Notes under the pieces: model-generated | Database searches by the model: none | What the model was told of the DNA's origin: nothing | What the model saw: only the letters and a program-made list of their open reading frames with translations | DNA from: a virus | DNA: 30,411 nt | Virus record (IMG/VR): IMGVR_UViG_3300012936_000097 | Span: 1 to 30,411 of that record | Direction: 5' to 3' (one strand) | Position numbers and translations under genes: made by a program | Part shown: piece after piece, positions 3,447 to 27,036 of the stretch | Layout of the letters: every line of letters begins with the position of its first letter | How positions within the stretch are numbered: the stretch's first letter is position 1

Positions 3447-3640
3447 AAAGCATTTCTTCTTTCTAGTTCTCTTTTAATAATATTTTTTTTCCTTTTAAAA
3501 GAGTCACTTTCATACATCTTTTGTAACTCTTCTGTTGAGGTATTATGAGGTGTATAATGTTTCCAGACATACTTATTGGTCATTTTACCTCGAGCATCTC
3601 TTATATAATCTTTAGTACTAGGTTTTAATTTTGCAGGCAT
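3443..3640 (-). CDS. Small basic conserved phage protein, 65 aa
   Basis: The frame is open from 3658, but I place the start at 3640 (MPAKLKPSTKDYIRDARGKM). This ATG shares one base with the TAA of the upstream 406-aa gene (TAATG). An AAGGAG lies about 7 nt upstream, inside that gene's last codons, and the MPAKLKPS start matches how I remember this family beginning. The 65-residue product is hydrophilic and basic, with the segment KHYTPHNTSTEELQKMYES and a C-terminal Lys/Arg-rich helix (KRKKNIIKRELERRNAL). No catalytic motif is visible. Homologues with the same 'MPAKLKPS...NTSTEEL...KRKKN' layout seem common in marine T4-like phages, function unknown. The longer start (71 aa) cannot be excluded. 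Confidence 0.8.
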   Translation of the reverse strand: MPAKLKPSTKDYIRDARGKMTNKYVWKHYTPHNTSTEELQKMYESDSFKRKKNIIKRELERRNAL

Positions 3641-4860
3641 TATTTTTCTCCTTTCCAAATTTCGCCTCTTCTACAACGAACAACTGCCCCGGAGGCGTAT
3701 GCTGAAGGCCAGGTGTCATATTTTCTTTTTGCTATCCTTGTACATCTATCATCTTTCTTTTTTTTCTTTTTTTCAGAGATAGGCTTTCTCTCTTCTAATA
3801 GACCAACTACTAAATTAATAATATCTTCCTTAGTAATTTTTTTGTAGCCAGAACCAAAAGGAGCTGCTTTACCATCATGATTAGGAGCTACGTTTTCGTT
3901 TTTCACTGAATATTCTCCTTTTTTCAAAAATGGTAATACATCGTTGTAAGGTACGTATTTAACCCCGTCGAATGTTTTGATTTTTCCAGCAAATGCTTTA
4001 CGGTCATCTTGACCTCTAGTAGTTCTTTTATCTTCATCAGAAAGAGCAAATACTTCATCAGTGAGTCCTAATTTAGCAATTATAAATCCTAAAAGTCCAA
4101 CAAAAGGAATTTTTTTAGTTATTGCTCCAAAAACTACTGCGTTGATTTTAAGAAGATCTAAAAGCTGTCTTTTAATAAATTCTTGATTTTCCCCACTAAT
4201 AGTTTCTCCTTTTAGATAACGTGCAACAACTTTTAACATATCTCTAGTTTCACCTGCTTCTTCTCTAGCAGTTTGAATCATATTGTTAACTTGCCCTTGT
4301 AATTTATCGATACCTCCTGCTACTAATTTGCCTACACCAGGTATTTTAGATATTGTTTTTTCTATTTGGTCTATTTTAGCATTGATGTTTTCTTGCATAA
4401 CAGCATCTGGGTATAATGTATCCATATCATATATGCCTCCTTTTTTAAAGTCTAAAGCATCTAAAATATCTCTTTTTATATCTTTAGGCATATCGTATAG
4501 TATATGCATTGCAAATTTTTCTCTACCTATGCTTTTGGCTAGCTTTTCTAGCATATCGGTTATCTTAGTATCTCCGTAAACTCTTACTTCTTTTTGAACG
4601 GTTGCTTTTTTAGTATTTTTCACGACTGTTTTTCCTTTAGCTCCTGCTTTACGTTTTTTTCTAGCAGTAGCTGCTCTTTGTGCTTTAGTTAAACTTCTTG
4701 CTTTAGCAGCAGGCAAACACCTATCAGGGTTCTTTTTATTTTTAGAGGTACCACATGGACCTGCTATGTTACCAGCAGTACTAATCCTAACCCACTTTTC
4801 TTTTTTAAACCAATCTCTTAAAGATTCTTTAACAATAATATTTAATTCATTTTTAGTCAT
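3640..4860 (-). CDS. Mosaic basic protein with two Cys-pair modules, 406 aa
   Basis: Three regions are visible. Residues 1-12 are a short amphipathic leader (MTKNELNIIVKE). Residues 25-90 are a basic module with C36 and C48 (RISTAGNIAGPCGTSKNKK), followed by an Ala/Lys-rich helix. The central part (about 95-330) is mostly helical, with an apolar stretch near residues 240-265 (FVGLLGFIIAKLG) that could be a membrane-active or buried helix. Residues 370-406 are a second module with C373 and C396 around TWPSAYASGAVV. I recall both terminal modules as separate or swapped pieces in other marine phage proteins, so this looks like a modular mosaic. No enzymatic motif is seen. The context of tagged small proteins suggests a packaged or DNA-associated role, but this is unproven. 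Confidence 0.8.
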   Translation of the reverse strand: MTKNELNIIVKESLRDWFKKEKWVRISTAGNIAGPCGTSKNKKNPDRCLPAAKARSLTKAQRAATARKKRKAGAKGKTVVKNTKKATVQKEVRVYGDTKITDMLEKLAKSIGREKFAMHILYDMPKDIKRDILDALDFKKGGIYDMDTLYPDAVMQENINAKIDQIEKTISKIPGVGKLVAGGIDKLQGQVNNMIQTAREEAGETRDMLKVVARYLKGETISGENQEFIKRQLLDLLKINAVVFGAITKKIPFVGLLGFIIAKLGLTDEVFALSDEDKRTTRGQDDRKAFAGKIKTFDGVKYVPYNDVLPFLKKGEYSVKNENVAPNHDGKAAPFGSGYKKITKEDIINLVVGLLEERKPISEKKKKKKDDRCTRIAKRKYDTWPSAYASGAVVRCRRGEIWKGEK

Positions 4861-6471: not shown

Positions 6472-8151
6472 CTATTTTTTAGACTTTTTTAAACGTTGAG
6501 TTTTCTTTTTTGATGCTTCTTTTCTATCTTTTATATAGTCAAAAGCACTTTTTAAACGTTTTTTAACATCAGGTTTTTTTGCTCTATTATATGCTGCTCT
6601 AGTTCTCTGATGAATCAAGTTTATAATTTGAGATTGTCTAGCATGTGATTTAGCTTTAAAAGATTTTTTATTTAAAGTATCTACTATATCTTGTCTGGAG
6701 CTGAATTTAACTCCGACTGTATCTTTTGGATCTTCATCTGTGTATAATCTTCTGCTTGATCCTTTTGGTTTCTTACCTGTTCCTTTTTTAGGTTCTTCCT
6801 TTATTATCTTAATTAAATCTTCAGCTAATTCATCGATACTAAATACTACTTCGTTTTTAGATTTTTTTAATGCTGTGCCTGCTTTTTTAGCTGCTTTATA
6901 CGCTTTCGAATTTTTATGAGAAGATTTTTTACCAGATTTCTTTTTAGCATTTATATTCGCCCATAAACTCTCGTCTAAATTTTTTATACTATCTTCCCAG
7001 TTTCTAAAAGTTATATTACCTAAAGTATATGCTTCTTTCTCTAATTGTAATAATCTGTCATCTGAGTTAGTATCGGTAGTGTTGATGTTGGTAAGAACAC
7101 CTTGTAAGTTTTGCATATGATGCACCATTTCATGTGCATAAGATCTAACTATATCTTTATTATGTCTTCCGGTAATATACAAAACTATTTTTTTTTCAGA
7201 AGGAGAATAGTAAGCTGTTCTTCCAAAAAAGTTAGCAGCATTAACTTCATCTTTTTTAACTATTACTTCAGGTAATGGAGATATATTCATTCCTATATCT
7301 AACATATACTCAGTTAAAGAAGTAATATACTCTTTTAGTTTTAAATTACTTTTTTCTTCTTTCAAGTTATCAAATTTTACTGTTAAATAATCTCTATTGT
7401 GAGTAATATTTACTCCGCTAGGTACTAATCTGTAAAGGTAATTATAAAGAATATCTAATCTATTTTTATCAACAGAGTTTATTATTCCTGTCTTATTCAA
7501 TTGCCCTTCGTTAAAATATTCATTTATAAAACCATCTATATTTTTTGCTAATATTTCTGCAACGATTTTATCTTTTAGATCATTTAAAATTTTTAAAATT
7601 TCTTCTCTTGATAAATCTTTAGGAAAAAAATCAGTAATTTGATCTAAGTTACCTGAAAGTATATTCTTTCTAAAATCTGTAGCCCTTATACCTGAACCGG
7701 GTTTAGAAGCTAAAGCTAAACCTTGTACGTTAGGTGCATTTTTAAAAGTAGTTACTCTTCTTAAATCTACAAAATCTTCTTCTGATCTTATTCCTGTTAC
7801 TGCTACAAATTTAGTTTCGGGATTTGCTTGAGCATAATCTTTTGCAGCAAACATTGGATTACTTCCCCCATCTAATATTTCTACATTACCTAAGTATTTA
7901 GCGTATATGTTCCAAATAGTTAATGCTTCGTCTTTATCTATGCCATTTCTTTCTCCTGCACCTACAAATACTATAACTTTATTTATATTAGGTTTTTCAT
8001 TAGATTCGCCAGAAACTAGATCTGCCCCTTTTTCTTTATAGTTGTCTTTATCATATATAGAACCATTATAAGAGCCGTCGAGTAAAGATTTTACTACGTT
8101 AAAATGACCTCTATGAGGTGGTTTAAATGCTCCTGGGTATAATGCTATCAT
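6472..8151 (-). CDS. Nucleotidyltransferase - zinc metallopeptidase fusion, 559 aa
   Basis: Residues 1-200 look like a nicotinamide-nucleotide adenylyltransferase or related cytidylyltransferase-fold enzyme. The start is LYPGAFKPPHRGHF, with an HxGH motif at H13-R-G-H16. SGIRATDFRK further on matches the family's ISxTxxR motif. Residues 250-400 contain a zincin signature, H340-E-M-V-H344 in SYAHEMVHHMQN, with a candidate third ligand downstream in LEKEAYTLG. The last 160 residues are very basic and joined from short pieces (LWANINAKKKSGKK; RRLYTDEDPKDT), ending in a Lys/Arg tail. I recall these pieces as separate modules in other marine phages. The gene starts within the ATGA overlap of the upstream P-loop kinase, suggesting linked functions. 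Substrates of both catalytic halves are unknown. Confidence 0.82.
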   Translation of the reverse strand: MIALYPGAFKPPHRGHFNVVKSLLDGSYNGSIYDKDNYKEKGADLVSGESNEKPNINKVIVFVGAGERNGIDKDEALTIWNIYAKYLGNVEILDGGSNPMFAAKDYAQANPETKFVAVTGIRSEEDFVDLRRVTTFKNAPNVQGLALASKPGSGIRATDFRKNILSGNLDQITDFFPKDLSREEILKILNDLKDKIVAEILAKNIDGFINEYFNEGQLNKTGIINSVDKNRLDILYNYLYRLVPSGVNITHNRDYLTVKFDNLKEEKSNLKLKEYITSLTEYMLDIGMNISPLPEVIVKKDEVNAANFFGRTAYYSPSEKKIVLYITGRHNKDIVRSYAHEMVHHMQNLQGVLTNINTTDTNSDDRLLQLEKEAYTLGNITFRNWEDSIKNLDESLWANINAKKKSGKKSSHKNSKAYKAAKKAGTALKKSKNEVVFSIDELAEDLIKIIKEEPKKGTGKKPKGSSRRLYTDEDPKDTVGVKFSSRQDIVDTLNKKSFKAKSHARQSQIINLIHQRTRAAYNRAKKPDVKKRLKSAFDYIKDRKEASKKKTQRLKKSKK

Positions 8152-9089
8152 GCTAAAAATGCTTGTACTTTTTGATCTATTTCTCTAGGAGTTGAATGTT
8201 TAAGTTTTTCTTGAAAAGTAGGATTATAAATCATATCTATAATATTATCTAAAACTGCATCATAATCTGCATCTCTTTTTACTTTTCTATCTCTATACTT
8301 TTTTACTGCATCTCTTAATTTATCTTGACCAGGACCTACTCCATTCTTTCTATATGCTTTTAAAAATTCTTTCTTAATAGCTTTATCTTCAGATCTATTA
8401 TCTTTATCCCAACTAACACTACCAACGTGTTTTATAAACTCATCTTCTTCTTCTTTAGACATTTCTACTGGTTCAAAGAAAGAAGAACCGCCTATGTCGT
8501 TTTCTTCATTATACCTTTTTAAATAATCTTTCACTCCAGATATACCTGCTTTAGCAGCAGTATTAAATGCTTCTATTTCTTTATTATATTTTCCGCCTCT
8601 ATCACTAACATATATTGATAAATTACCTTTTAACTTTTTATTGTAGTCTTCAATTTTTTGATAGATATTTCTCCAAGTAGACATCACTGCATCTGCAGGT
8701 ACGTTTCTTTTTCTGCCTTTGAAGTTTGAAATATAAGAAATCATAGGATGTGCATATACCATCACCATGTATATATCATAACCTAGAGAAAGTAACTTAT
8801 CTAAGTTTTTCTGAAAGCCAGCTCCTGAAGCAGTAGTGTCCCAAACAAAGCTAGTTTTGTCTTCCGCCGCCGCCATTGCGTCCTTGGCTGTTTGACTGGA
8901 CGCTGGACCTAGCTTGTTGTGATACGGATGATCCGGATCCTCTATATACTTGTCTGGGTTGAACTGGGTTAGAGAGTCTAGGGATAACTGGTTTAGAAGG
9001 TACGTTTTGCCTGTTCCAGCTCCCCCTGCCATTATTACGGCTTTCGGACGACCAGTTTGCTCCAGAATTATTTCTGATAATTTGATCAT
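8148..9089 (-). CDS. P-loop kinase (zeta-toxin/AAA_33-like), 313 aa, tagged N-terminus
   Basis: The N-terminus is MIKLSEIILE|QTG, the leader shared with unrelated neighbours, directly followed by a Walker A motif at residues 22-29 (GGAGTGKT). Further on, FVWDTTASG is a likely substrate-binding or Walker B-like strand. FKGRKRNVPADAVMSTW resembles the arginine-bearing lid region of zeta-toxin and polynucleotide-kinase-like P-loop kinases. The C-terminal 100 residues are charged and helical, with no known domain. It probably phosphorylates a small metabolite or a nucleic-acid end; the target is unknown. The first 80 codons are read in a second frame by the upstream lipoprotein gene. Its stop overlaps the nucleotidyltransferase start by 4 nt. 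Confidence 0.85.
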   Translation of the reverse strand: MIKLSEIILEQTGRPKAVIMAGGAGTGKTYLLNQLSLDSLTQFNPDKYIEDPDHPYHNKLGPASSQTAKDAMAAAEDKTSFVWDTTASGAGFQKNLDKLLSLGYDIYMVMVYAHPMISYISNFKGRKRNVPADAVMSTWRNIYQKIEDYNKKLKGNLSIYVSDRGGKYNKEIEAFNTAAKAGISGVKDYLKRYNEENDIGGSSFFEPVEMSKEEEDEFIKHVGSVSWDKDNRSEDKAIKKEFLKAYRKNGVGPGQDKLRDAVKKYRDRKVKRDADYDAVLDNIIDMIYNPTFQEKLKHSTPREIDQKVQAFLA

Positions 9090-9744
9090 TATTACTGTTG
9101 TTTATTATTCTTACGTTAAGTCCATTTTCTCTAAATTCGTTAACTATACGATTAATATTATCATTATTAACGTTATTTCTAGGATTATTATACCTAGTAA
9201 TCATTTGATTACTAATGGTCCTATTATTATAATTAGTTGTATTACTCCCTCTTCTTCCATTAATGTAAGCAACATTATAATTATTATAATTTGAACCCCA
9301 TACTACATTATTCCATGGTCTGTAAGGACGATACCATCCATAATAGTGATAAGGTCTATACCAGTCGTACCAAGACCAAGAATTATAACTGAAAGCCCAA
9401 TCGGTCCAAAACCAATGGCTGTGAAAATAAACATCGAATCTATTATAGGGTCTCCATATTCCGTCTAACCTTGGATTATTCCAATACCATGAATAAGGTT
9501 GATTCATAGCATATTGAGCAAAATTCCATCTAAAATTGAAGTCAGTTCTTAACTTCCACCTTAAATCTGAAAAGGAATTTAACGTGTCTATTTTAGTTTC
9601 TTTTGCAACTGGTATAATATAATCTACCGGGTATAAAGGGTCGTGATTTAATGTAGCAAGTTTATAAGAAGCACATCCGTAAAGAATAAACATGGTGATT
9701 AATCCACCTATTAATCTAAATAATGAGCTTGGTAATTTTTTCAT
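8851..9744 (-). CDS. Trp/Tyr-rich lipoprotein, 297 aa, C-terminus overlapping the kinase gene
   Basis: A lipoprotein signal peptide is visible: MKKLPSSLFRLIGGLITMFI followed by the lipobox L21-Y-G-C24, so export and lipidation of Cys24 are expected. Residues 75-150 are extraordinarily rich in Trp, Tyr, Asn, Pro and Arg (WYDWYRPYHYYGWYRPYRPW). Residues 155-225 are Asn/Arg-rich, and the tail is Ser/Gly/Gln/Arg-rich (SSVSQQARSSVQSNSQGRNG). This order matches a class of flavobacterial lipoproteins as I remember them, suggesting acquisition from a host. The start is coupled by ATGA to the upstream nuclease, and a TATTTATAATA motif sits 22 nt before it. The last 239 nt overlap the P-loop kinase gene in another frame. 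It may modify the infected cell surface; this is inference. Confidence 0.78.
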   Translation of the reverse strand: MKKLPSSLFRLIGGLITMFILYGCASYKLATLNHDPLYPVDYIIPVAKETKIDTLNSFSDLRWKLRTDFNFRWNFAQYAMNQPYSWYWNNPRLDGIWRPYNRFDVYFHSHWFWTDWAFSYNSWSWYDWYRPYHYYGWYRPYRPWNNVVWGSNYNNYNVAYINGRRGSNTTNYNNRTISNQMITRYNNPRNNVNNDNINRIVNEFRENGLNVRIINNSNNDQIIRNNSGANWSSESRNNGRGSWNRQNVPSKPVIPRLSNPVQPRQVYRGSGSSVSQQARSSVQSNSQGRNGGGGRQN

Positions 9745-10523
9745 AATTTTAAAGTAGTTGGGTAACTATTATAAATAGGTTCAACCTTAGGGTTTTCTAA
9801 AGAATATAGTTTATAGATTGTTTGAAATAAATCGAAATTATAATCAATTTCATCTACTATTTTTATTTTCCAACCCTTTCCTTGATATATTCCTTGCTTT
9901 TTTGAAGGTCCTCTTGATTGAGCTTTTAACCAAATTATACCGGTTCTATCTATTTTGATTCCTTTAGTTTCTTCTAATGCTTTAGCGTATGCAGCTAACT
10001 GTAGATCATAAGATTTATGTAAGCTATTAGAAGTTTTAAGGTCTAACAACCAAACTTCATCGTCCATTTTTACTACTAAATCAGCAGTACCTGCATACTT
10101 AAACTCATCAGAGTATACAAAGTCTTCTGTGGATATTAGTTCAGGCTTATAAGTACTCCAAAAATCATGGAATTTAAGAATCATTTCCCAAACTATCTGA
10201 GAATATTTAGCATTACCGTAATTATCCATCCAAGAAATTTCTTCTCCTTTTACTAATGCTTCTGCTGCTTCATGCACTTGAGTACCTTCTTTACCAGCTC
10301 TTCTCATAATAAGATCGGCACTATGCCCAACATCTTTAAGCCATGACTCAAAAAATTTATTTTTGGGCATGTACTGGAGTATGGTAGTTACAGATGGATA
10401 ATATACTCCTTCCGATCTTTTATAAACTCTTCTATCTAAAAAATTAATTTGTTGGAGTTCAGGTTTAAAGTCCAACCTTTTTTTCTCGTTCTGTTCGAGA
10501 ATATTCATACCTTGTTTTATCAT
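9741..10523 (-). CDS. PD-(D/E)XK nuclease (RecB/Cas4-like), 260 aa
   Basis: The nuclease core is clear. A GxxxH element lies at G80-H84 (GTQVHEAAEAL), followed by D148 in AGTADLVVKM, then D161-L-K163 in WLLDLKTS and the Q175-LAAYAKAL helix. This is motif-for-motif the RecB/Cas4-like exonuclease arrangement with a two-metal active site. No Cys cluster for an iron-sulfur site is seen, unlike Cas4/AddB. The N-terminal 40 residues are basic; an in-frame Met6 (MNILEQNEKKRL) could be the true start. It overlaps the primase gene by 4 nt and the lipoprotein by 4 nt. Primase plus nuclease suggests a role in phage DNA replication, recombination or host DNA breakdown. Confidence 0.88.
   Translation of the reverse strand: MIKQGMNILEQNEKKRLDFKPELQQINFLDRRVYKRSEGVYYPSVTTILQYMPKNKFFESWLKDVGHSADLIMRRAGKEGTQVHEAAEALVKGEEISWMDNYGNAKYSQIVWEMILKFHDFWSTYKPELISTEDFVYSDEFKYAGTADLVVKMDDEVWLLDLKTSNSLHKSYDLQLAAYAKALEETKGIKIDRTGIIWLKAQSRGPSKKQGIYQGKGWKIKIVDEIDYNFDLFQTIYKLYSLENPKVEPIYNSYPTTLKL
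9767..9777 (-). promoter_or_regulatory. TATTTATAATA motif upstream of the lipoprotein gene
   Basis: The 11-mer sits inside the last codons of the nuclease gene, 22 nt before the lipoprotein ATG. Identical copies precede the giant fibre and the 219-aa structural gene. It also contains TATAAT, so a sigma70-like -10 element is an alternative reading. Confidence 0.35.
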
Positions 10524-11488: not shown

Positions 11489-11917
11489 CTAAATATCAAC
11501 TAATTTAAGGTGTTTTTTCTGATTAACCATTATGTTTGAAGGTCTTATATCAAGCTCATCTGGATCTATTCCGTATCTAGGAGCTTCTTTTTCAACGGCA
11601 TCAACCCACTCTTCCGGAATACTACCTCTAAATTCTCCTAAAACTTCCATTTGTATTATACCTAATTTAGGATTGATAACTTCAACATCGTATATTCTAG
11701 CAAAGTTATTCGTTTTTTTACCTTTAAGTAATTGTGCGTGCTCTAATTCAATTTCGTCAGTAGTTACTTTGTAAACTCTACCATTGAGTAGATAAGCTGA
11801 TCCATAGTCTCCAGAACCTAAATGTTTACCTCCCTGATCTAAGATTTTATCTACTTGTTTTTCGAAATCAGGATCGTAATATAAAATTTCTCCCAGTATT
11901 ACGTGCGATAGTCTCAT
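11489..11917 (-). CDS. Minimal protein-kinase-like protein, 142 aa, tagged N-terminus
   Basis: A tiny kinase fold with its key residues in the right order: a glycine loop at 34-39 (GSGDYG), K50 in RVYK, a candidate alpha-C glutamate at E57 or E59, a hinge near QMEVLG (89-94), then D123-IRPS-N128 matching the HRDxxxxN catalytic loop. D141 is in the position of the DFG aspartate. The protein ends right after it (LVDI), so the activation loop and most of the C-lobe are missing. It may be a pseudokinase, a minimal active kinase or a phosphotransferase for another substrate. The N-terminus MRLSHVILGE resembles the leader on neighbouring cargo-like proteins. It follows a 141-aa tagged protein with 4 nt between the genes. 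Confidence 0.75.
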   Translation of the reverse strand: MRLSHVILGEILYYDPDFEKQVDKILDQGGKHLGSGDYGSAYLLNGRVYKVTTDEIELEHAQLLKGKKTNNFARIYDVEVINPKLGIIQMEVLGEFRGSIPEEWVDAVEKEAPRYGIDPDELDIRPSNIMVNQKKHLKLVDI

Positions 11918-11921
11918 AACA

Positions 11922-12347
11922 TTAATCTAACGGCCCTCCTTTACCGGAACTCATATAATCACCAAATTCTCGAGATTCTTTTGTATCTATTTGAACGTAG
12001 ATTGGATGATTATCAGCTCCTTTAGGACCAATTAAATAAAAAGAACTTATTCTTATACCTTCTAACTTATTACCTTCTTTTTCATGTTCTTGAACTACTT
12101 TTGCTACAGTAGCGTAAACTTCAAGTTTCCAACTTCCTTCAGGTTTAATTTTTTTAGTTGAAGGAGTAAACATACCGGTATCAGTAGGTACTTGAATGCT
12201 TTCTATAGTGTCAGGCATTCTTTTTAATGCTTGTTCAAATTCTATGAGAGTATCAGCATTACCTAGCCAATCAGTAATATATTTTTTACCGTTAATAATG
12301 CTAACGTCTTTTCTAAATCCTTCGAATATTATACCGGTTAATTTCAT
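11922..12347 (-). CDS. Tagged hypothetical protein, 141 aa
   Basis: It begins MKLTGIIFE|GFRK, a clear copy of the leader on unrelated neighbours. The body is a mixed alpha/beta soluble domain: YITDWLGNADTLIEFEQALK, then a Thr/Lys-rich loop, WKLEVYATVAKVVQEHEKEG and SFYLIGPKGADNHPIYVQID. There are no Cys residues, signal peptide or membrane segments, and no catalytic motif was recognised. The start overlaps the stop of the 44-aa gene upstream by the ATGA pattern. I cannot name a family. The leader and the position beside the mini-kinase suggest the two proteins share a destination. Confidence 0.78.
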   Translation of the reverse strand: MKLTGIIFEGFRKDVSIINGKKYITDWLGNADTLIEFEQALKRMPDTIESIQVPTDTGMFTPSTKKIKPEGSWKLEVYATVAKVVQEHEKEGNKLEGIRISSFYLIGPKGADNHPIYVQIDTKESREFGDYMSSGKGGPLD

Positions 12348-13390: not shown

Positions 13391-14179
13391 TTACCAGTAT
13401 CCTGAAAAGTTTGAACTTCCGCCTAAAGACTTCCAGTATCTACCGATATTGCAAGACCAGTAACCAGCTTTAGTTTTATCTTTCTTCTGTGCACATTTAT
13501 GTCTAGCAGCAAATGATGCTCTAGCACCTCTCTGTTTTAGTTTAACAGAAAGACCTGTGTCACCAAAAGATACTTTTTTAATATTACCTGTTTTTGGATT
13601 TTTAACGTAAACGTAGAATTTTTTAGAACCTCCTCGTTTAGGTTTATTTAATTGTACTTTTTTACCTCTATACTCAGCTTCAGGTATATAATCTACAGAT
13701 GCTTTAAGCATTTCGAATCCATTATAATCGAAAGTTTCATTCTGTATTGAAACTGCTTTTCTAAATTTATCCATATTCATAGTACCTCCTATAGATTCTA
13801 CTAGTTCTTTAATTAAATCAAAATCTATCATTTCTTCTATAGAAGCAGCCTCATCGATAGTATTTTCATCTTCAATCATTTCATCGATTAGGTTACCAAT
13901 TTCAAACATTGGATTATAGTTTGGTGATACCATAGGTAAATCTAAAGGTACTCTCATACCATTATAATCTCCATATTCACCAATATCAGTAGACTCTAAT
14001 AATAATTTATCTTGATCATTAAGTTCTATTTTACCGTCTCTCCATGCTTCTCTAGCTTCTTTGAATAATTGTATAAAGGCATCAGAGCTATAACGGTAGA
14101 CATGCTCAGATAACGTTAGCTTTCTATCTAAATGGTACTGTAACGATGGGTATCCTATAATTTCTTTTATTTGTATCAT
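13391..14179 (-). CDS. Two-part protein with basic C-terminal Cys-pair module, 262 aa
   Basis: Residues 1-95 form one region (LSEHVYRYSSDAFIQLFKEA; EYGDYNGMRVPLDLP). An acidic linker with DEMIEDENTIDE follows. Residues 181-262 are a strongly basic module with VSFGDTGLSVKLKQRG, ARASFAARHKC (C229) and AGYWSCNIGRYWK (C243). I recall this basic module at the end of many marine phage proteins, as with other modules in this block. No enzyme signature is visible. The N-terminus MIQIKEIIGYP resembles the neighbouring leaders but lacks the terminal (L/I)-x-E. Both ends are coupled: its stop lies 12 nt before the next gene and its start overlaps the upstream gene by 4 nt. Confidence 0.8.
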   Translation of the reverse strand: MIQIKEIIGYPSLQYHLDRKLTLSEHVYRYSSDAFIQLFKEAREAWRDGKIELNDQDKLLLESTDIGEYGDYNGMRVPLDLPMVSPNYNPMFEIGNLIDEMIEDENTIDEAASIEEMIDFDLIKELVESIGGTMNMDKFRKAVSIQNETFDYNGFEMLKASVDYIPEAEYRGKKVQLNKPKRGGSKKFYVYVKNPKTGNIKKVSFGDTGLSVKLKQRGARASFAARHKCAQKKDKTKAGYWSCNIGRYWKSLGGSSNFSGYW

Positions 14180-14658
14180 GATATATATTTACTAATTTTT
14201 TTCATAGCTTCTTCTGCTGATATTTCATTACCCATCCAATTATTATGAACATAATACATAACATCTTTAATGTTATCTAAATCCCCATTCATTTTTATAC
14301 CCGAGTTAATAACTTTTTCCATTTCATCGTTAGGTTCTGATAAGCTAGTGCTTTCATTTTTCATTTCGGGATGAAATAAAAATTTAACGGTATTAGCATC
14401 TTTTGCTACTTCTTTACCATCTATTTCTATACCAATTGGATAAGGCTTAGTTTTATCATCTGCCCAATAAGCTACGTCGTAACTTTTATCTTCATTACTT
14501 GTTACTAATAATCCTCTGTTATATGTATCTTCTTCGGCTTGAAGTACAACCATTTTACCGGTTGGTAAGATCATATCGCCCATTAGTTTGATATCTCCTT
14601 CATCGTATCCATCGTCATTATAACGATTTTGTTCGAGAATTATATCAGTTAGTTTCAT
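14176..14658 (-). CDS. Tagged hypothetical protein, 160 aa
   Basis: Begins MKLTDIILE|QNRYND, the clearest copy of the shared N-terminal leader. The body is acidic and likely beta-rich (MILPTGKMVVLQAEEDTYN; LLVTSNEDKSYDVAYWADD), then helical at the end (HNNWMGNEISAEEAMKKISK). There are no cysteines, membrane segments or known motifs. It overlaps the GIY-YIG-like gene upstream by 4 nt and the 262-aa gene downstream by 4 nt, so all three are probably translated together. I do not recognise a family. The leader plus neighbours suggest the same destination as the kinase-like tagged proteins. Confidence 0.78.
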   Translation of the reverse strand: MKLTDIILEQNRYNDDGYDEGDIKLMGDMILPTGKMVVLQAEEDTYNRGLLVTSNEDKSYDVAYWADDKTKPYPIGIEIDGKEVAKDANTVKFLFHPEMKNESTSLSEPNDEMEKVINSGIKMNGDLDNIKDVMYYVHNNWMGNEISAEEAMKKISKYIS

Positions 14659-15893: not shown

Positions 15894-18800
15894 TTAGTTT
15901 TTAGATTCTAACTTCTTTTCTAGCTCGTTTACTTTAGCTGTTAGTTCTTTTATAGCTTCAGTAAGTACCGCTACCGTTGCAGAATAATCGATGGTTTTAA
16001 CGTCATCTATATTATCATCTAAGTTATTAGTAGTGTCGGTATAAGTTAATTCAGGAAGTTGCTTTTCAAAATCTTGTGCAATAAATCCTATCGAACTTCC
16101 TCTTTCTTTATCTTTCCAGTCAAATGATACTCCTTGTAAGTTTAATACTTTATCTAATGCTCCTGTAATAGGTCTTATATTTTCTTTTAACCTTATATCA
16201 GAAGAAGTAGATGTTGTAAATGCGGTAATATTATCTCTAGCAAAAATTCTATAGACTATAAGGTTCCTCCATCTATTACCGCTACCTCCGAGATCGAATC
16301 CTGTTGACGTGCTAGTACTATTTGTATTAGGTAATAAATCATCAGATAATAGATTACCCCCTTTTACTTGGAATATAGTCTGTTTACCTGTAATACCTGC
16401 ATCTTGTCTTACAGCTTTAATAAACTTATCAGCCCCTGATACTACCTGTAGTCCCCCAGCTTTTAATTCTACGAAGTTAGTAGGTAGTTTAACTTGTACC
16501 TGAGTATCGAATGAACCAACTGAGTCAAAAGTTTGAGATTGATTACTAACACTAAAGTGTGATTCGGTATAAGAAGTAATTCCTGAAGCATTAGTAGAAT
16601 GGTTTCTAGCAGAAGAAGATTTTAAAAGCCACTTATACCTCAGCTTTATAGTGCCACTTTCTGATATAGTTAAAAGTACTTTTTTATTGTTTTGAGCAGC
16701 TGCGTTACTTTGAGCTCCAGTAGAAGCAGCAAAAGATACACTATTGTTCCAGGTAAATGTAGCAGTATTGTGGTGTATTATTTCATTCGCTATATAGTTT
16801 ACATGAGGTGGAATTTTTAGAGAAACTACATTTAATTCTTCTTTTATTAGGTCTCTTTTAGTAACTAATTTCTTTTCTATACCGTTTCCTGTGTCTATAA
16901 AAATTTCAGTAAATCCAGGATTAACTTCTTCAACTTTTAAAGCTTCTCCATTTTCCATCCAAAATTCGTGACCGGAAGATACCTTTATTGCTTTACCGTC
17001 TACTTCAACTTCATAATATTCAGCTCTAGTACTTTTCTTTACTTTGCTTATTTTATCAGTAACAAATTTATTTTGAGTATAATCCCATACTTTTAATTCG
17101 TCTCCTTCTTGTAAATTTTTAGCTAATGTTTTATCTCCATTACCTAAAGTTACCAAAGAATTTTCATCAACTGATTCAAATGCTATTAAGAAGTCTAATG
17201 GAGAGCTAGAACTACCGCCTGATGAGTAACCACCGGAACTATTACCACTCGATGTTCCTGATGCTTGACTATAATTATATTGACTAGAATTACCAAACTT
17301 ATGTGCTTGCGCTAGTAGAACTGAACCAATTTCAGTATTGGAAGAATTAAAAGCACATAAATATAAATCAGCACCTAAGAATGCTTTCCTTGGAGTAATT
17401 TTACCATGTGTTTGATTATTATAAGATGCATTATAACTCGGATTAGCAGTTGTACCTGTAGCTGAAACTGAAGGTCTTTTGACTGTAAAAGCTGGTACAT
17501 TTAAGGTAACTTCAAACGTACCTTTAGCATCTGCTGTAAAAGTGTTACTAGAAGCATCTGGGCCTTGTATTGAAGCAGTAGCTAATCCTGATAAAGCACT
17601 ACTTCCTATGACTCCATATGTTGGATTTGATACTGAGGTAGTAGAGGTTAAAGTAGACCAGTTTCCTCCAGAGCTTGGTATACTTCCTACATTAACGTTT
17701 GTAGTAGTATCAGCAATAGGAGTTAATTCATCTAATGGAGATATAATTACTTTTTTCTCAGCACCAGAAAACATTTGAATTTCTGGTATATTAGGTTCAA
17801 AAATTATTTCGCTATTGTCGTCTCTTAATGCATTAGTAGTTTGGTCGATTACCCAATCACCTATCCTACCTGAAGTAGCGGTTATTTCACCTGTTATAGC
17901 AGCATCTTCTGCTGTCATAATACCTTCGCTATTTACAGAGAATTTAGGTGATGCAGCAGTTGGTACACTTATATTACCCCCTATAACACTTCCACCTTCT
18001 ATATTACCTCCTACTATACTAGTACCTGCTATCAAACTACCGGTAATACCGGAACCTTGTACTAATCCTTTAAATTGAGCATCTCCTGATTGACTGATAA
18101 AGAAACCTTTCGAATGTATACTACCTGCAGAATTTAAAGTAATACCTGTACCGGTATTAAATCCTGAGGTATTTTTAGTACCAGAGAAGATTGCATCTGA
18201 ATCAATTGTCCATCCTCCAACAAAGCCATCATCGAAGTTAGCATTAACACCTGATCCTGCGCTAAAATCAAACCAATCTAAGATAGGGTCATTCGTTACA
18301 TCGAAGAATGAAGAATCTAAGTAATAGGTTGTTGTAGCACTTTGATTACTTTCTGTTCTTTTTAGCGTATTATTATGGTAATATTTTATTGTAGCTCCAT
18401 CATAACATATCTTAAATACATCCCCGTTACTTATTGATTCGTATGTCTGTATGCTATTACCGTTTTGGTAAACTTGAGAAGTCGTACCATTTATATACCA
18501 GGCATGATCTATACTTGTAAAAGAAGTATTAGTAGAAGGGTCAGTGTTGAGGCCCATCATAAATCTTCTAGCAGATGCAACATTAGTTACTCTGAATATT
18601 ACTTCTGCACTTCCTGCCTGGCCGTGTAGAGATTTCATTTCACCGTTCCAGGAATTATCATTAGCTATTTTTCTAACTGATCTACCTACAAGTTCTAAGT
18701 TACTAGTTAAACTTAAGTTAGCAGCTAAAATTTGTGATTCATTAATAGAAGAACTTAAAGAAGCTGTTGCACTATTTAATGCTGCTGTTGTTGCTGCATT

Positions 18801-21800
18801 TCCTCCTTCAATATTAATATCTCCTGAGATGCTTAAAGTAGTTCCATTCCAAGATAATTTACTACCTAGGGAGAACTTACCTGTATTATCAGCATAGAAT
18901 TTTGTATTTGAATTATTATGAGTACCGGTTCCTATATAGATTTTAGAAGTACCTAAAGTAATACCTCCTATAGTTCCTGAAGTTGCTTTTAATACTCCCG
19001 CTGGAGTAACGCTAAATGGCGCTGAGGCGAATGAAGCATGTCCTAATTGAATACCTGAAGTAGGAGAGGCTTTAAAAATAGCATTACCAGAACCTATCTG
19101 TAATGAACCTACAAAGTTACCAGTAGCTGCAGATAATTCTCCTTTAAATACTGCGGCTCCATAATTAGTTATCCTAAAATGAGTAGAAGTTAGAGCTCCT
19201 CCATCTAAATCAATAGCTGTACCTGCTGAAGTAAATGCATTACCGTTAGTATTACCTGAATGATTATTAGACTTAATAAGTCCTGTTTGAATCATATCAC
19301 CAGCAATCTTAGTAGTATTACCTAAACTATGACCTCCAGCCATTGCTTGGAAAAGTACTTGTTGAGAAGTTGATGAATAAAAGAAACCAGCTCCTGGTCT
19401 TACAAAGTCTTCTGTTACGCCGTTAGTTATAGAATCGTATACAAATAACGGTGTTATAAAATTACCGTTTTTAAATACTGTGTATCTAGCTCCTGTAGGT
19501 AATAATCTTATTCTAATTCTAAATTGTTGATTATCTGAGAAGTCTGTATCGTTAGTCCATTGAGCAGATGTAGTACCCATTAATTGTTGCTGAGTTCTTA
19601 TTTCACTACCATTTTCATAGATCCTGAACTGTCCGTTATGATGCATATAAACAGCATGGGACATTTGACTTCTACCAAAACTACTTGGTGTTTCTTTATA
19701 TAAACCGATAGCAGTACCTGGGTTTGTAGAACCAGCTACTACATCGAATTCAAATATAGGAGAATCACTTCTTGCAAAAAATGCATCTGAATGAAATCCT
19801 GCATCATGTGAATCGTTATTATTATTAAATCTATTTCCTAAAACCGGTGTAGTTAGAGTTGCTGTTGCTAATGCTCCTGTGCCGTTATCTGATACGAAAG
19901 TAGAACTATCTAATGAGCCGCTAAATTGATAAGTTAATGAAGGACCTAATCCTTTGTTACCTATAATTAATCTATTTCCATCCCATGCTAGACCTTGATC
20001 TCCACTTCCGCTTAAGTAGAAGTTACCATCTTTATCCATATAGGTTAAGAACGTACCGTTGTTACCGCTATGGAATCCTAATTTTTCTGAATCAAAGAAT
20101 AATCCTGGTCCAGTTATACTACCTGTAATAGCAGCTAAAGCAAATCCTGGTTGACCAGAAGGACCAAATGAATAAGAATCAGGATTAGCTAACGATGAAG
20201 TTGCATTAATAACAGTTTGTAATTCTGCTTGAGAAGCAAAATCATTTTCATTAGTTACGGTAACACTACCGGATATAGTTAAGGTTGTTCCATCCCATGA
20301 TAGGGCATTACCTAAAGAAAACTTACCTGTATTGTCTGTGTAAAATTTAGTATCTGCATTATTATGGTTACCTGAACCTATATACATTTTAGTAGCATCT
20401 AATTCTATACCTCCGATAGAACCGTCTCTAGCTATTATACTACCATCAATTGATAAATCTGTTCCGTCCCATACTAATCCACTATTTCCACTTCCTGTTA
20501 AGAAGAATTCTCCAGAAGAAGATAAATAAGCTTTCCATTTATCTGTATCGTAATAACCTAAGTTATTAGCGCTCATAAATAATCCAGTACCAGATGGTGT
20601 AGGATTAAAAGTAATCTTACCGGTATTGTCTACTGATCTAGTTATCGCTGTATCTGAATTAGCTACTGCTTGTGCTGCTTGTGCTGATGCTGTTGTGGCT
20701 AAATCACTAGCTTGATCTGCTGCTGCTGTATTACTTTGAATAGCTCCAGATAAAGAAGCTGATAGGGCTGCTGTTCCATCATTTACACTTCCTGTTACAT
20801 AATCTTGAGTGGCTGCATTACCTCCTAGTACGTTAATATCTCCTGATATAATTAATGAAGTTCCATCCCAAGCTAATTTATTAGTACCGCTACCGGTTAA
20901 GAAGAAACTACCGTTATTAGACATAAATGTTGCAAACTTACTACCGTTGTAAAAACCTAGAGCAGAGTCACCTAAGTATAAACCTGCTGCTGTAGTACTA
21001 GGAGTAGAAACTATCTTACCAGATGAATCTGTAAATATAGTAGCGGCGAAAGATGCTGAAGTTGAGGTAATTAACGCAGCTTGATCAAAGGTAGCATCTG
21101 AAGCTGTAACCCATGTTGAACCGCTAAAAATATAAAGTCTATTTCCATCATTATCATCTATCCACATATCTCCTTGTGTACGTCCTGATGTAGATGGTGC
21201 ATCGTTTTGTCTAAATACTGAGTTCTTTCCTGATACTACTCCGTCAAATGCATCTGCTGTAGCAGCATGAGAAGCAGAGACTGTTAGTGCTGTAGCATCT
21301 GTTTGTGCTATAGAAGCAGAAAGAGAACTAGATAAAGAAGCAGTTGCTGCATTAGTTGCAGCCAATGCGTTTGCTTGAGCTGTTGCTGCTGCGTTACTAC
21401 CACTAGTTACGGCATTAGCTGCTGCAGTAGCGGCAAAATTTTGTGCTGCTGTTTGTGCTGATGCTACTGAAGATGTAGTTGCTGCATTACCAGAGACTAT
21501 GTTTATAGAACCTTGAATAGTTAATTGACCTCCATCCCAAGATAAGAACTGACCATCACTTCCTGTTAAAAAGAAGTTACCATTATTAGCCATATAAGTT
21601 CTCCACTGACTACCTGAATAAAATCCTAAATTAGTATCTCCTAAAAATAAACCTTGAGCATCTGCAGAAGAAGTATCAGGTGTTTGTACTAACTTACCAG
21701 ATGAATCTGTAAAAATATCTAAAGCTACTGATGAAGATAAAGAAGCTGAAGTGGTATTGATTAATACTGTTTGATCATAAGTACCGTCAGGTGTAGCAGC

Positions 21801-24800
21801 AAATGAACTACCATTCCATACATATACTTTATTATTATCATCAGCATCTATCCACATATCACCTACTGTTCTTCCTGAAGTCGATGGTGGGTTATTTTGT
21901 CTAAATATAGATGTTTTACCTGCTATTACATTATTAGCTGAATCTAAACCGTCTTGTAAAGTAGCAGTAGATGAACTAATTGACGAACTTAATGACGATG
22001 ATACATTATCTATATCTGCAGAAGCAGAAGTATATGCTTCGGCTGCACTAGAAGAAGCGAAGGTCTGTGTTGCAGCATTACCGCCTGTTATATTTATACT
22101 ACCTTTTATTTCTAGAGTACCGGCAGAAGAGTCCCAAGCAAGTTTATTACCTGCTGAGCCTGTAAGGAAAAAGTCTCCTTCGTTATCCATATAAGTTGCC
22201 CATTCACCACCTTTATAGAAACCTAAATTAGTAGAGGTCATATAAAGACCTTGAGCAGAAGCAGTTGGAGGTCTAACAGCTCTACCTGAACTGTCAGTAA
22301 ATATCTTACTGTCTATAGTATTAGTAGTTGTAGCTATAGAGCTAGATAAAGAAGCATCTGATGATGATATTTCTGTTGCTAAAGATCCTGATAGAGAAGC
22401 TGTTGCAGCATTTAATTCAGCAGTAGTTGCACCAGTACCTCCTGTTATATCTATAGCACCTTTTATATTCAAAGTACTACCGTCCCAGTAAATGTAGTTA
22501 TTACCGCTTGTTGCAGTTCCTACTCTAAACTTACCATTACCGTCTATATAAACTCCTGTTCCAGAAGTTGTTGTTATAGAGCTTGCATTTGCTCCTGCAG
22601 TAAGAGTCCCATTATTTAAGGAACTAGAAATCATAAAGTTAGAAGTATCTAAACTAAACGTTTCAGTTTTTATAGTTAGATTACCATCTGTAAAGTTATC
22701 CAAACTAATAAAGTTGTCAGCACCGCCTACTTTCCAAGCACCATCTGTATACCAGTAATTATTGTTGTTTACAAATATACCATCATTGGTTCCAGATACA
22801 TCTCTACCTATAGATATTTTTTGACCTGTTTCTAATCCTCCTGCAACTGTAGCAACATGAAGTATACCTGCAATAGAACCTGTATCAGCTGTAATAGCTC
22901 CTTTAAAGAATCCATTTTCTGTATATAAACCAAATCCTGGTTCATTATTACCGTATAAGTACCCTGAGGATAATCCTGATAGGTCTCCTAGTCTAGATCT
23001 TAATTCTAAATCATAAACCCCTGATCCTGTTCTTTCTACTATATCCATATAAGGAGTAGAAATATCTCTAGGATTAGCATTCATCATTATATACCCGGAA
23101 GATACATCTGTAGCTGGATTAAATACACCTGTTGATAATATTACTTGACCTTCGTTTAGAGGACGTGCAGCGGATACGAGGCCGCTTAAAAATTCTTTAT
23201 CGGTATCTATTTTAAATATAGTATCTCCAACAGTATGTGAATCGGCAACACTATCGTGATAGCCTCTAATAACTGTCAATACTTTATTATTAATAGCAGT
23301 AACTTTTAATCTTTCATTATCGATTTTGATAATATCTTGTAAGTTTAATCCAGTTGAACTAACTACTTCGATAGTAGTTTCTGATGCTGTATCTATACTC
23401 GAAGATACAGTAGTAATAGATGAAGAGACAGCAGGTGTTCCTCCAAATCCTCTCTCTACGTAAATTTCTCCTGCTAATCCATCAGGGTCTATTGAACCTG
23501 TATTGTAGCTTAAAGCGTTATCCTCTGAATATCTTTTTGTACCTGAAACGTATAAATACTCTACTCCAAATCCTGTATCATCTACAGTTTTTACTTTTAA
23601 TATTTCCCCTGTTTCAAATCCTGATACATTAGCTAAAGAAAGAGTAACGGCGTTAGCAGCATATGAAGAAGAACCGGCTATAATAGTTCCTTCTGCAGAT
23701 CTTAATGGCTGTATAGTAGAAGCGTTAGTAACCATTAGCTGACCACCAACAACGTTAACACTTTCTTTTTCGAATACAGTAGTTTTTAATGTACCACGTA
23801 TTCTCATATTTTCAAACTCAGCAGAACCGTTTCCTAAAGTATCTATTCTCCAACCTTTAACATTAGTTACGAAGTTAGATGATTCTATAGTGCCTGATGA
23901 ATTAATTATCAAACCTGTTTCACCTTCAGCATAAGAACCTCCAAAGCCGGCAGCAGGAATTGATCTTATTTGATCGCCTGTTATTTCCCATCCACCAACT
24001 TTGTTACCTTGCTGACCGAATTGAGCAATGGTATTACTAGAACCGGTGCCTGCACCATCGTATATTTTTAAACCAAATAAATCTCCTGCGGCATTAGATA
24101 TTTCTCCTAATCTAATTATTTCTTGCCCAGAAGGTTTAAATATAGTTAACCTTTTAGTAGAAGTATCAATATCAAAATTAGTTGTGTCTAACTTAAAAGT
24201 ATCTGTTTTAATATCAATACCACTTGTTGTATTGAACCTTAGGTAGTTACTAGCATCCTTAGTAAGATCCAGCGTAGGAACAGCTGCATCCATACCTAAT
24301 ATTAATCCAGCATCGTTAGTAGCAAAACCTGTTTTAGTTCCTGCAACTATCATTGCGTCTTCAGCGCTTCCTGATATTTTAAATTTATTAGCAGTCCCTA
24401 CTTCTATAGCTGAAGAGGCTCCTAATAGTTTTACACTACCACCACCTAAAGACATAGAAGCATGTGTTGAAGATATCTCTATATTAGAAGCAGATATTTC
24501 TAATAGCTTAGTTGATATACTTACATCAGTACCGTCAAATTTAGCAAAGCTTGATGCTCCATCTCCTACATAAAATCTCGGAGTACCACTATTATGTTGT
24601 AGTTGAATACCTTGATTACCGAAAGTAGAACTCTTAATAGAAATACTTTCGTTCGTAGCATCTAACACTATATTAGATGACTTACGTATTTCTGAGTTAG
24701 TAATGGTCCATCCTGCTATAGTACCACCGCTAAATAATACTGCTGATCCTGTTATATCACCACTACCTTTTAAACTAAAATTAGATGCTGAGATAAAATG

Positions 24801-25395: not shown

Positions 25396-27036
25396 TTAGC
25401 CCGTATACATAATATAAGCTAGAGCTAAAAATGGAGGTACGTGATGATCTGTATGTATAGTATGGTTATGACCTCCGCCACCACCGGTAGAATTACTAGT
25501 TCCGTTTCTCCAATAAACTCTAGTATTATCATTATCACTGTCTCCACTTCCTTTGTATTTAGTAGGTCCTACATAATCTACTCCACCTATAGCCCCACCA
25601 GCTCCTACTCCTACATTATGTATTTCTATAAAATAAGAATCTTTGTATGTATGAGTATGTGAAGGTATTTGAGAAGTAGTTAAAGTAGTGGTACCTGCAT
25701 TACCTCCGTGATTGTGTGATATATCTCCTCCAGTTGCAACTGCGCTACCAGAAACGGTAGTTGTAGGTGTTCCTGTACTATTACTTGCTCCTACTACAAA
25801 CTTATTTGTTAAGTCTGGTATAGTTAATCCGTTTACTGTGTTACCGCTGTTACCATCACATAAAGTAAATCCTGAAGGTATAGCGTTCATATTACCTGAC
25901 CACATTATTATACCTCCTAATGGAATTGGAGCTGCATTAACTTGTTTTACTATTTTACTTTGTGATACTACTAAGAAATCATAATGATCTGCAGTAGCAG
26001 CATTTCCTACTGTATTAAGAGTTACAGAACCAGATAAAGTTGAAGAACCACTAATATATAAATCTGCACTACCGGATAATACTCCTCCTATAGTTCCTGT
26101 ACCGTTTACTGCAAGATTACCAGAACCTGTTATATTTCCATCTACATGTAACTTACCTGCAGGTGAGGATGTTCCAATACCTACATTACCGTCTCCTCCG
26201 AAGTGAGCTACTAATCTATTATAGGTTGGTTCTTGACTTGAAGTTGCAGGTGCTGAAATTATCGAAAAAGAATCATTACCTGATGTTGATTGAATTCCTA
26301 CCAACACGTGTGCGTTTTGAGGTCCTTCTAAAATTATACCTCTTTCATTTCCTACTAATAGATTATTTCCTGTATTACTTTCAATTCTAGGGTTACTTGA
26401 GTCCCAAGTAAAAAGTTTTGATCTATAAATATCTTCATGAGTTTTTCCAAAAATAATACTTCCACTAACAACAAAATCTCCTAAAGATGAGTCAGCACCT
26501 TTATGTGTGATGTTACCGCTACCTTTTAATCTTAAAACTTCATTACCGTTATTAGTTTCGAAAATTATATCTGCATTGCTATCAGCGTGATGATTTCTAA
26601 TAGTCAAGTCTTTAGTAGTACCTCCCATAGCAAAACTCGATGATACGCTACCTTGTGCAATAGCTAATGTACTATTTTCTAATACTACCTTACCTCCATC
26701 TACTCTTAATTTTTCGCCAGTTTCTAGAGAAGAAGTATTAATTGCTAAACCTACGTTTGAAGAATCATAAACTAATCCAGTTGCTCCACCGAACTGAGTA
26801 CCGTTTAGTTTGTATTGAAGTTCATTTACATTTCCAGCTACCTGTACAGAGCCGGTAAAAGTATTTAAGGGAATATTTACTACCCCGGCAGACTGTAAAG
26901 CACTACCAGTATAGAATAAAGATAAGGAAGAAGAATCTGATGGTACAGAAGCAGAATAGAAAAAACTTTGAAAGTTAATATCTAATTCTTCGTATGATAA
27001 TGCAGATCCTTTATTAGTTCTTAATGTTATAGCCAT
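25396..27036 (-). CDS. Tail fibre with collar domain and His-rich tip, 546 aa
   Basis: Residues 1-30 (MAITLRTNKGSALSYEELDI) repeat the attachment module of the giant fibre. The shaft (30-365) has Ser/Gly-rich beta repeats including NVGIGTSSPAGKLHVDG. From residue 371, IPLGGIIMWSGNMNAIPSGF starts a phage tail collar domain. H-x-H motifs follow at 441/443 and 460/462, and a HNHTIHTDHH cluster near 523-532. These resemble the metal-binding tip of T4 gp12-type short tail fibres, where aligned histidines bind iron along the trimer axis. The final ALAYIMYTG is also typical. It probably binds host surface glycans. The start lies 2 nt after the stop of the upstream structural gene. Confidence 0.9.
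   Translation of the reverse strand: MAITLRTNKGSALSYEELDINFQSFFYSASVPSDSSSLSLFYTGSALQSAGVVNIPLNTFTGSVQVAGNVNELQYKLNGTQFGGATGLVYDSSNVGLAINTSSLETGEKLRVDGGKVVLENSTLAIAQGSVSSSFAMGGTTKDLTIRNHHADSNADIIFETNNGNEVLRLKGSGNITHKGADSSLGDFVVSGSIIFGKTHEDIYRSKLFTWDSSNPRIESNTGNNLLVGNERGIILEGPQNAHVLVGIQSTSGNDSFSIISAPATSSQEPTYNRLVAHFGGDGNVGIGTSSPAGKLHVDGNITGSGNLAVNGTGTIGGVLSGSADLYISGSSTLSGSVTLNTVGNAATADHYDFLVVSQSKIVKQVNAAPIPLGGIIMWSGNMNAIPSGFTLCDGNSGNTVNGLTIPDLTNKFVVGASNSTGTPTTTVSGSAVATGGDISHNHGGNAGTTTLTTSQIPSHTHTYKDSYFIEIHNVGVGAGGAIGGVDYVGPTKYKGSGDSDNDNTRVYWRNGTSNSTGGGGGHNHTIHTDHHVPPFLALAYIMYTG

Follow-up and report, generated by a model that had tools for sequence, protein, structure and literature searches.

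A survey of co-directional genes in 338 prokaryote genomes led to the view that the longest genuine overlap is that of holD/rimI of Enterobacteria (56 bp), and all 715 co-directional overlaps longer than 60 bp were judged to be misannotations (PMC2478687). Across viral genomes, the median +1 overlap is 14 nt long (PMC8903798). Beyond the small viruses, a long co-directional overlap is usually put down to faulty annotation (PMC2478687), and gene callers that forbid them would truncate or drop one gene of such a pair. By analogy, the nearest known arrangement to the locus described here is the overlapped two-component spanin pair (T5, Jersey and DFL12phi1), which is likewise a same-strand partial overlap of tailed phages with an outer-membrane lipoprotein, occurs in overlapped and separated forms within one family, and holds in its overlap the C-terminus of the upstream protein, differing between the forms (PMC6139136). 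Unlike in spanins, the lipoprotein is here the upstream member and its partner is a kinase without a lysis role; the overlaps span 203–254 nt, whereas the cited spanin pairs share 70, 116 and 155 nt, overprinting falls on a catalytic P-loop, and the separately encoded tail has a similar composition. A two-component spanin pair proper was ruled out, as the partner has a soluble P-loop kinase fold and is not an inner-membrane protein with an N-terminal transmembrane segment. The holD/rimI pair is similar in being co-directional, with the upstream 3' end over the downstream 5' end, and conserved across genera, but it reaches 56 bp at most against 239 nt in the locus under study (PMC2478687). A likeness also exists to viral overprinting, where a new frame arises over an older protein-coding gene; the locus differs in that the C-terminal tail alone would be new and that a similar stand-alone tail occurs in relatives (PMC8227390). 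None of the papers searched describes this lipoprotein/kinase pair.

The locus lies in a viral contig that was analysed over its whole stretch of 30,411 nt (the window; IMG/VR record IMGVR_UViG_3300012936_000097). On sequence evidence, and with a probability of about 95%, it is a real co-directional overlapping gene pair of marine tailed phages in which the tail of a lipoprotein is overprinted on the older N-terminus of a kinase. Direct support for this reading comes from the overlap itself, its conservation, the frame-specific and amino-acid-level selection, the separate forms that serve as controls, and the relics. The features concerned are the following:

8851..9089, minus strand: lipoprotein/kinase dual-coding overlap of 239 nt (kinase residues 1-79; lipoprotein residues 220-297 and the TAG stop)
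8851..9744, minus strand: phage lipoprotein gene, 297 aa (ORF; lipobox LYGC)
9673..9684, minus strand: lipobox LYGC with predicted acylated Cys24 (sequence; invariance in relatives)
8148..9089, minus strand: P-loop kinase gene with a zeta-toxin/polynucleotide-kinase-like fold, 313 aa (Pfam, PHROG and model)
9003..9026, minus strand: Walker A motif GGAGTGKT (residues 22-29 of the kinase), covered by the overlap
9060..9089, minus strand: kinase leader MIKLSEIILE, recurring on unrelated phage proteins; low-confidence and unstructured in the model

Analysis of the open reading frames placed both genes on the minus strand in different frames over 8851-9089 (ORFs 8148-9089 and 8851-9744), exactly the 239-nt same-strand overlap that the preliminary description had marked from the sequence alone. 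The shared stretch corresponds to kinase residues 1-79 with part of codon 80 and to the final 78 residues of the lipoprotein with its stop; the kinase leader and the Walker A motif (GGAGTGKT at residues 22-29) are both inside it, as had been read there. In the terms of PMC3887535 this is a phase 1 overlap (239 mod 3 = 2), the usual phase for long overlaps. The remaining same-strand overlaps in the window are of 1, 4 and 11 nt, in keeping with the earlier upper limit of 11 nt, and an apparent 19-nt overlap at 3640-3658 was gone once the ATG start was used. The hand-counted GC content (about 48%, and about 52% in 8861-9060, against roughly a third around) was reproduced by computation: 47.7% in 8851-9089 and 52.0% in 8861-9060, compared to 30% elsewhere in the two genes and 33% for the window as a whole, of which the overlap is the GC maximum. 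Its attribution to the constraint of two frames was borne out as well, since the first 240 nt of the kinase gene have a GC content of 0.43-0.51 where overlapped and of 0.32-0.37 (32-37%) where separate, with 0.42-0.44 in two decaying relics. In the window kinase, the first 67 codons of the second frame contain 0 stops against 7.7 expected from the kinase protein and local codon usage, and 0 of 20,000 synonymous recodings of the stretch were stop-free, which places the dual frame far beyond chance. The dual-coding reading of 8851-9089 is thus strongly supported by the sequence.

Judged from profile matches and a structural model, the product of the downstream gene is a P-loop kinase of the zeta-toxin/polynucleotide-kinase-like type. 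It matches the Pfam family Zeta_toxin (PF06414, E=2e-9, 37.6 bits with a cut-off of 22.3) and the PHROG 2071 ATPase (E=9e-11), and its AlphaFold model (pLDDT 87.8) is closest among PDB folds to zeta toxin (1gvn/3q8x) and bacterial polynucleotide kinase (4gp6/4mde). The kinase fold and the P-loop are thus shared with zeta toxin (epsilon/zeta, PezAT) and bacterial polynucleotide kinase, from which the window kinase differs in its low identity (~14%) and a TM-score of 0.36-0.39 by query. A scan with the patterns used found no kinase relatives in bacterial or archaeal genomes, no close relative was found among named phages (the best, Pelagibacter phage HTVC008M, has 25% over half the length), and a sequence search found no solved structure. 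The alignment of kinases contains 59 invariant columns, and E10, P15, K16, G22, G23, G27 and K28, all invariant, are in the overlap. A kinase start downstream of the overlap, which the preliminary description had named as evidence against itself, does not fit these data: the kinase cannot start there because the Walker A motif and the invariant residues lie in the overlap, and a mis-called kinase start was ruled out on the same ground.

The upstream gene product has the predicted signal peptide, lipobox and single invariant cysteine of a bacterial lipoprotein; Cys24 is invariant in 27 lipoprotein relatives and is preceded by a hydrophobic helix (6-25). No family in Pfam or PHROG matched the lipoprotein, and no relatives were found among named phages. 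Structure prediction gave a helical domain at approximately residues 58-118 and a disordered tail at 208-297 (pLDDT ~30). From the sequences and the model, the tail is a disordered extension under selection that appears to act mainly on composition and less on sequence. As part of an acylated envelope lipoprotein, it would probably act as a basic, flexible linker or as a binding segment.

Scans of viral contigs recovered kinase loci in sets of 46, 80, 16 and 5 and lipoprotein loci in sets of 18 and 31, some of them more than once. Most of the 81 distinct kinase genes keep the second frame open for 203-254 nt, and an overlap of this length was found in 50 of the 58 distinct kinase lineages; kinase relatives were retrieved by similarity to an overlap carrier and include the best 80 of 320, so the 50:8 ratio favours overlap carriers, and the lineages are related to one another. 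All 50 overlap lineages have 0 second-frame stops in the first 67 codons, compared to the 6-10 expected for each from recoding with local codon usage, and farther down the kinase gene the stop counts of the same frame are near prediction. The eight lineages without the overlap show 4-16 second-frame stops. Stops in the lipoprotein frame of close relatives had been proposed earlier as grounds for rejection; there are none where that frame runs into the kinase gene. Fifty lineages with the overlap also rule out a sequencing artefact. The preliminary description had further proposed dN/dS per frame as a check, and this did not prove to be the telling statistic: at medium distance the synonymous rate falls by only ~20-25% from the rest of the gene to the overlap, and in the closest pairs, some of which look mosaic, it is not lower. 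Such a modest reduction indicates weak constraint on the exact tail sequence, and the conserved features, as judged by sequence comparison, are the openness and composition of the lipoprotein frame more than its exact sequence. For the L077, L074 and L073 kinase genes, close pairs are much more divergent within the overlap than farther down the gene, a pattern that suggests mosaic exchange of the lipoprotein together with the kinase 5' end.

The register of the two frames is such that the third base of a kinase codon is the first base of a lipoprotein codon, and four-fold sites in the overlap can be compared with those downstream. T that would make a stop (before AA, AG or GA) occurs at 0 of 465 such sites in the overlap compared to 49% downstream, and T that would make cysteine (before GC or GT) at 0 of 242 compared to 32%; phenylalanine-making T (before TC or TT) is rare and histidine-making C (before AC or AT) is absent. 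Conversely, glutamine-making C (before AA or AG) reaches 54-96% in the overlap and 5% downstream, even though A, which is the commoner base, would give lysine. The 3822 residues of the overprinted tails comprise 0 Cys, 2 His and 10 Phe, whereas recodings that are stop-free but otherwise free would be expected to hold 5.8% Cys and 5% Phe. The residues SGNQRPT account for 78% of overprinted tails and 82% of separately encoded ones, as against 58% of the stop-free recodings, and the mean net charge is +12 in overprinted tails, +7 to +15 in separate tails and +18 in recodings. Both measures show the overprinted tails pushed towards the stand-alone make-up, with Gln replacing much of the Asn. Because third bases avoid stops, Cys, Phe and His and prefer Gln over Lys, the lipoprotein frame is selected at the amino-acid level. 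Both encoded proteins are under selection, the kinase in its invariant columns and the lipoprotein in third bases specific to the codon table of its frame.

Relatives that encode the two proteins apart show that it is selection that maintains the double use of the shared DNA. In L103, L111, L055, L056, L028, L131 and L118 the lipoprotein ends at or just before the start of the kinase, with a Ser/Asn/Arg/Gly-rich tail that it encodes itself, whereas L051, L052 and about a dozen further loci harbor the same self-tailed lipoprotein followed by an unrelated gene. The earlier suggestion to look for the tail in homologues without the overlap was thus productive: at least 18 distinct loci, with the kinase adjoining or not, have a lipoprotein with a self-encoded tail, similar in make-up but not identical (more Asn, almost no Gln). 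The lipoprotein is lost in L087 and L035; the second frame decays there, as it does in the self-tailed L118, and in L087 and L118 the overprinted frame can still be recognised as a relic full of stops. Rarely are natural controls so complete, with the two proteins overlapped, separated, or the lipoprotein lost with its frame decaying, and they permit a direct measure of the extent to which a catalytic core tolerates recoding for a second protein, and of the ways in which overlaps arise and are lost.

Separate kinases and separate lipoproteins were both found, and such non-overlapping homologues indicate that one frame is older. Comparison of L103 (separate) with L097 (overlap) gave a kinase protein identity of 92% over residues 2-80 and 95% after 90, but codons 2-76 carry 43 synonymous and 6 nonsynonymous differences among 75 codons, compared to 15, 7 and 11 synonymous differences in the next three blocks. 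Given the fairly sharp boundary, L103 could have acquired its recoded 5' end through recombination, the donor being a separate-form lineage outside the sample. A tree of the kinases built from codon 90 onward requires 6 state changes, at least 4 of them on well-supported branches; the separate and overprinted forms were thus swapped at least four times, gains not being separable from losses by counting on an unrooted tree. In contigs that reach the gene end, lipoproteins in kinase-free contexts always have their own tail, which suggests that the stand-alone tail came first, and the relics indicate that the overlap was also lost in some lineages. The chances are roughly even that a tail selected for composition moved repeatedly between a stand-alone segment and a frame in the catalytic core of its neighbour, the neighbour being synonymously recoded each time; if true, overlap formation would be a reversible evolutionary switch and not a one-way ratchet.

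Under the overprinting reading, the shared stretch would first have coded for the kinase N-terminus (leader, beta-1 and P-loop), and the original stand-alone Ser/Asn/Arg/Gly-rich tail would have been replaced when the lipoprotein frame extended into the kinase gene. Synonymous sites of the kinase would then have been recoded to give a stop-free, Cys-free, positively charged tail rich in Ser/Arg/Gln/Pro/Gly. Since selection seems to act on composition more than on sequence, the tail could be supplied by either route, and the routes were apparently swapped several times. Both proteins would be translated from one polycistronic mRNA, with lipoprotein ribosomes running past the kinase AUG and stopping ~237-239 nt beyond. 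This distance (~239 nt) is too long for termination-coupled reinitiation to be likely, and the kinase would begin by independent internal initiation in an AU-rich, weakly folded leader without a Shine-Dalgarno sequence. Among overlap carriers the 40 nt upstream of the kinase start have a mean GC content of 26% and are weakly folded, and in the window an A is at -3; the start region is in line with the SD-less initiation described in Flavobacterium (PMC6847099).

The passage of lipoprotein ribosomes over the kinase start could alternatively be the purpose of the arrangement, as a device that sets kinase output, for example by keeping a harmful kinase low or by timing it. All overlap carriers have the kinase start within the lipoprotein frame, and the resemblance of the kinase fold to zeta toxin is in agreement with this, but control of output requires neither Gln over Lys nor the avoidance of Cys, and in several lineages the forms are separate, the kinase beginning where the lipoprotein ends; we consider it unlikely. 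Far less probable is neutral stop loss, by which the lipoprotein frame drifts into the kinase and the tail is a tolerated by-product without selective value. Even in the absence of selection, long phase-1 overlaps can form when the upstream gene lengthens at its 3' end (PMC3887535), and synonymous change in the overlap is reduced to a modest degree only; nevertheless, drift does not account for 0 stops in 50 lineages with 6-10 expected in each, stop avoidance does not explain the avoidance of Cys, Phe and His or the preference for Gln, and the frame decays after the lipoprotein is lost. The GC peak and the constraint on kinase-synonymous positions could also reflect an RNA element, either a structure or a regulatory site, in the 5' part of the kinase gene, the open frame then being a side effect, which is slightly more improbable still: the overlap has an ordinary fold energy (z = -1.0) and no Rfam match, the third-base pattern tracks the codon table of the second frame, and the GC peak is absent in kinases without the overlap. 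Frameshifting to a lipoprotein-kinase fusion is hardly credible, because the one contig in which an indel joins the two frames at the overlap end (L038, 5001-5944) is otherwise like L006 and probably holds an assembly or sequencing error, the lipoprotein stop varies from 203 to 254 nt from the kinase start so that no fixed shift site exists, and the fused product would be without the P-loop.

The overprinted pair is embedded in a run of minus-strand genes:

6472..8151, minus strand: NMN-adenylyltransferase-like gene downstream of the kinase, sharing 4 nt with the kinase gene in an operon context
9741..10523, minus strand: PD-(D/E)XK exonuclease gene upstream of the lipoprotein, with a 4-nt overlap with the lipoprotein gene (PHROG 298, E=3e-44)

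A primase is also among the neighbouring genes. The gene of Flavobacterium phage immuto that is syntenic to the NMN-adenylyltransferase-like gene is annotated NadR. The exonuclease is 70% identical to its immuto counterpart, so that a flavobacterial host appears likely for these tailed phages. At the syntenic spot immuto has a different protein, and neither the lipoprotein nor the kinase is there. In some relatives a 160-aa leader-bearing gene is located between the kinase and the NMN-adenylyltransferase-like gene (L060:6645-7127 and L053:6711-7193).

The kinase leader belongs to a motif, M(I)[KR][LI]xx[IL]xxE, that is also present in the window at 14176-14658, 11922-12347 and 11489-11917, all on the minus strand, and in many loci of relatives (e.g. 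L033:1733-2661 and L060:6645-7127). In the fetched loci it was found at the N-terminus of 178 of 992 distinct proteins, kinases included, compared to 6 of 3752 internal Met sites. Its letters resemble the capsid-targeting sequence of T4. Internal proteins of T4 carry such a sequence (PMC3012670), and the systems share a short N-terminal leader on otherwise unrelated proteins as well as the T4-type prohead protease family, which was over the cut-off (PF03420) in all five long relatives searched, the window being too short to show the gene; the leader sequence differs here. By analogy, a capsid-targeting-like role of the shared leader is a lead, and if it is true the kinase would be packaged and injected. 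Elsewhere in the window, the start of a 3153-aa ORF at 15894-25355 (MAITFRDEKGAPLTHEELDA) resembles the start of the tail-fibre-like ORF at 25396-27036 (MAITLRTNKGSALSYEELDI).
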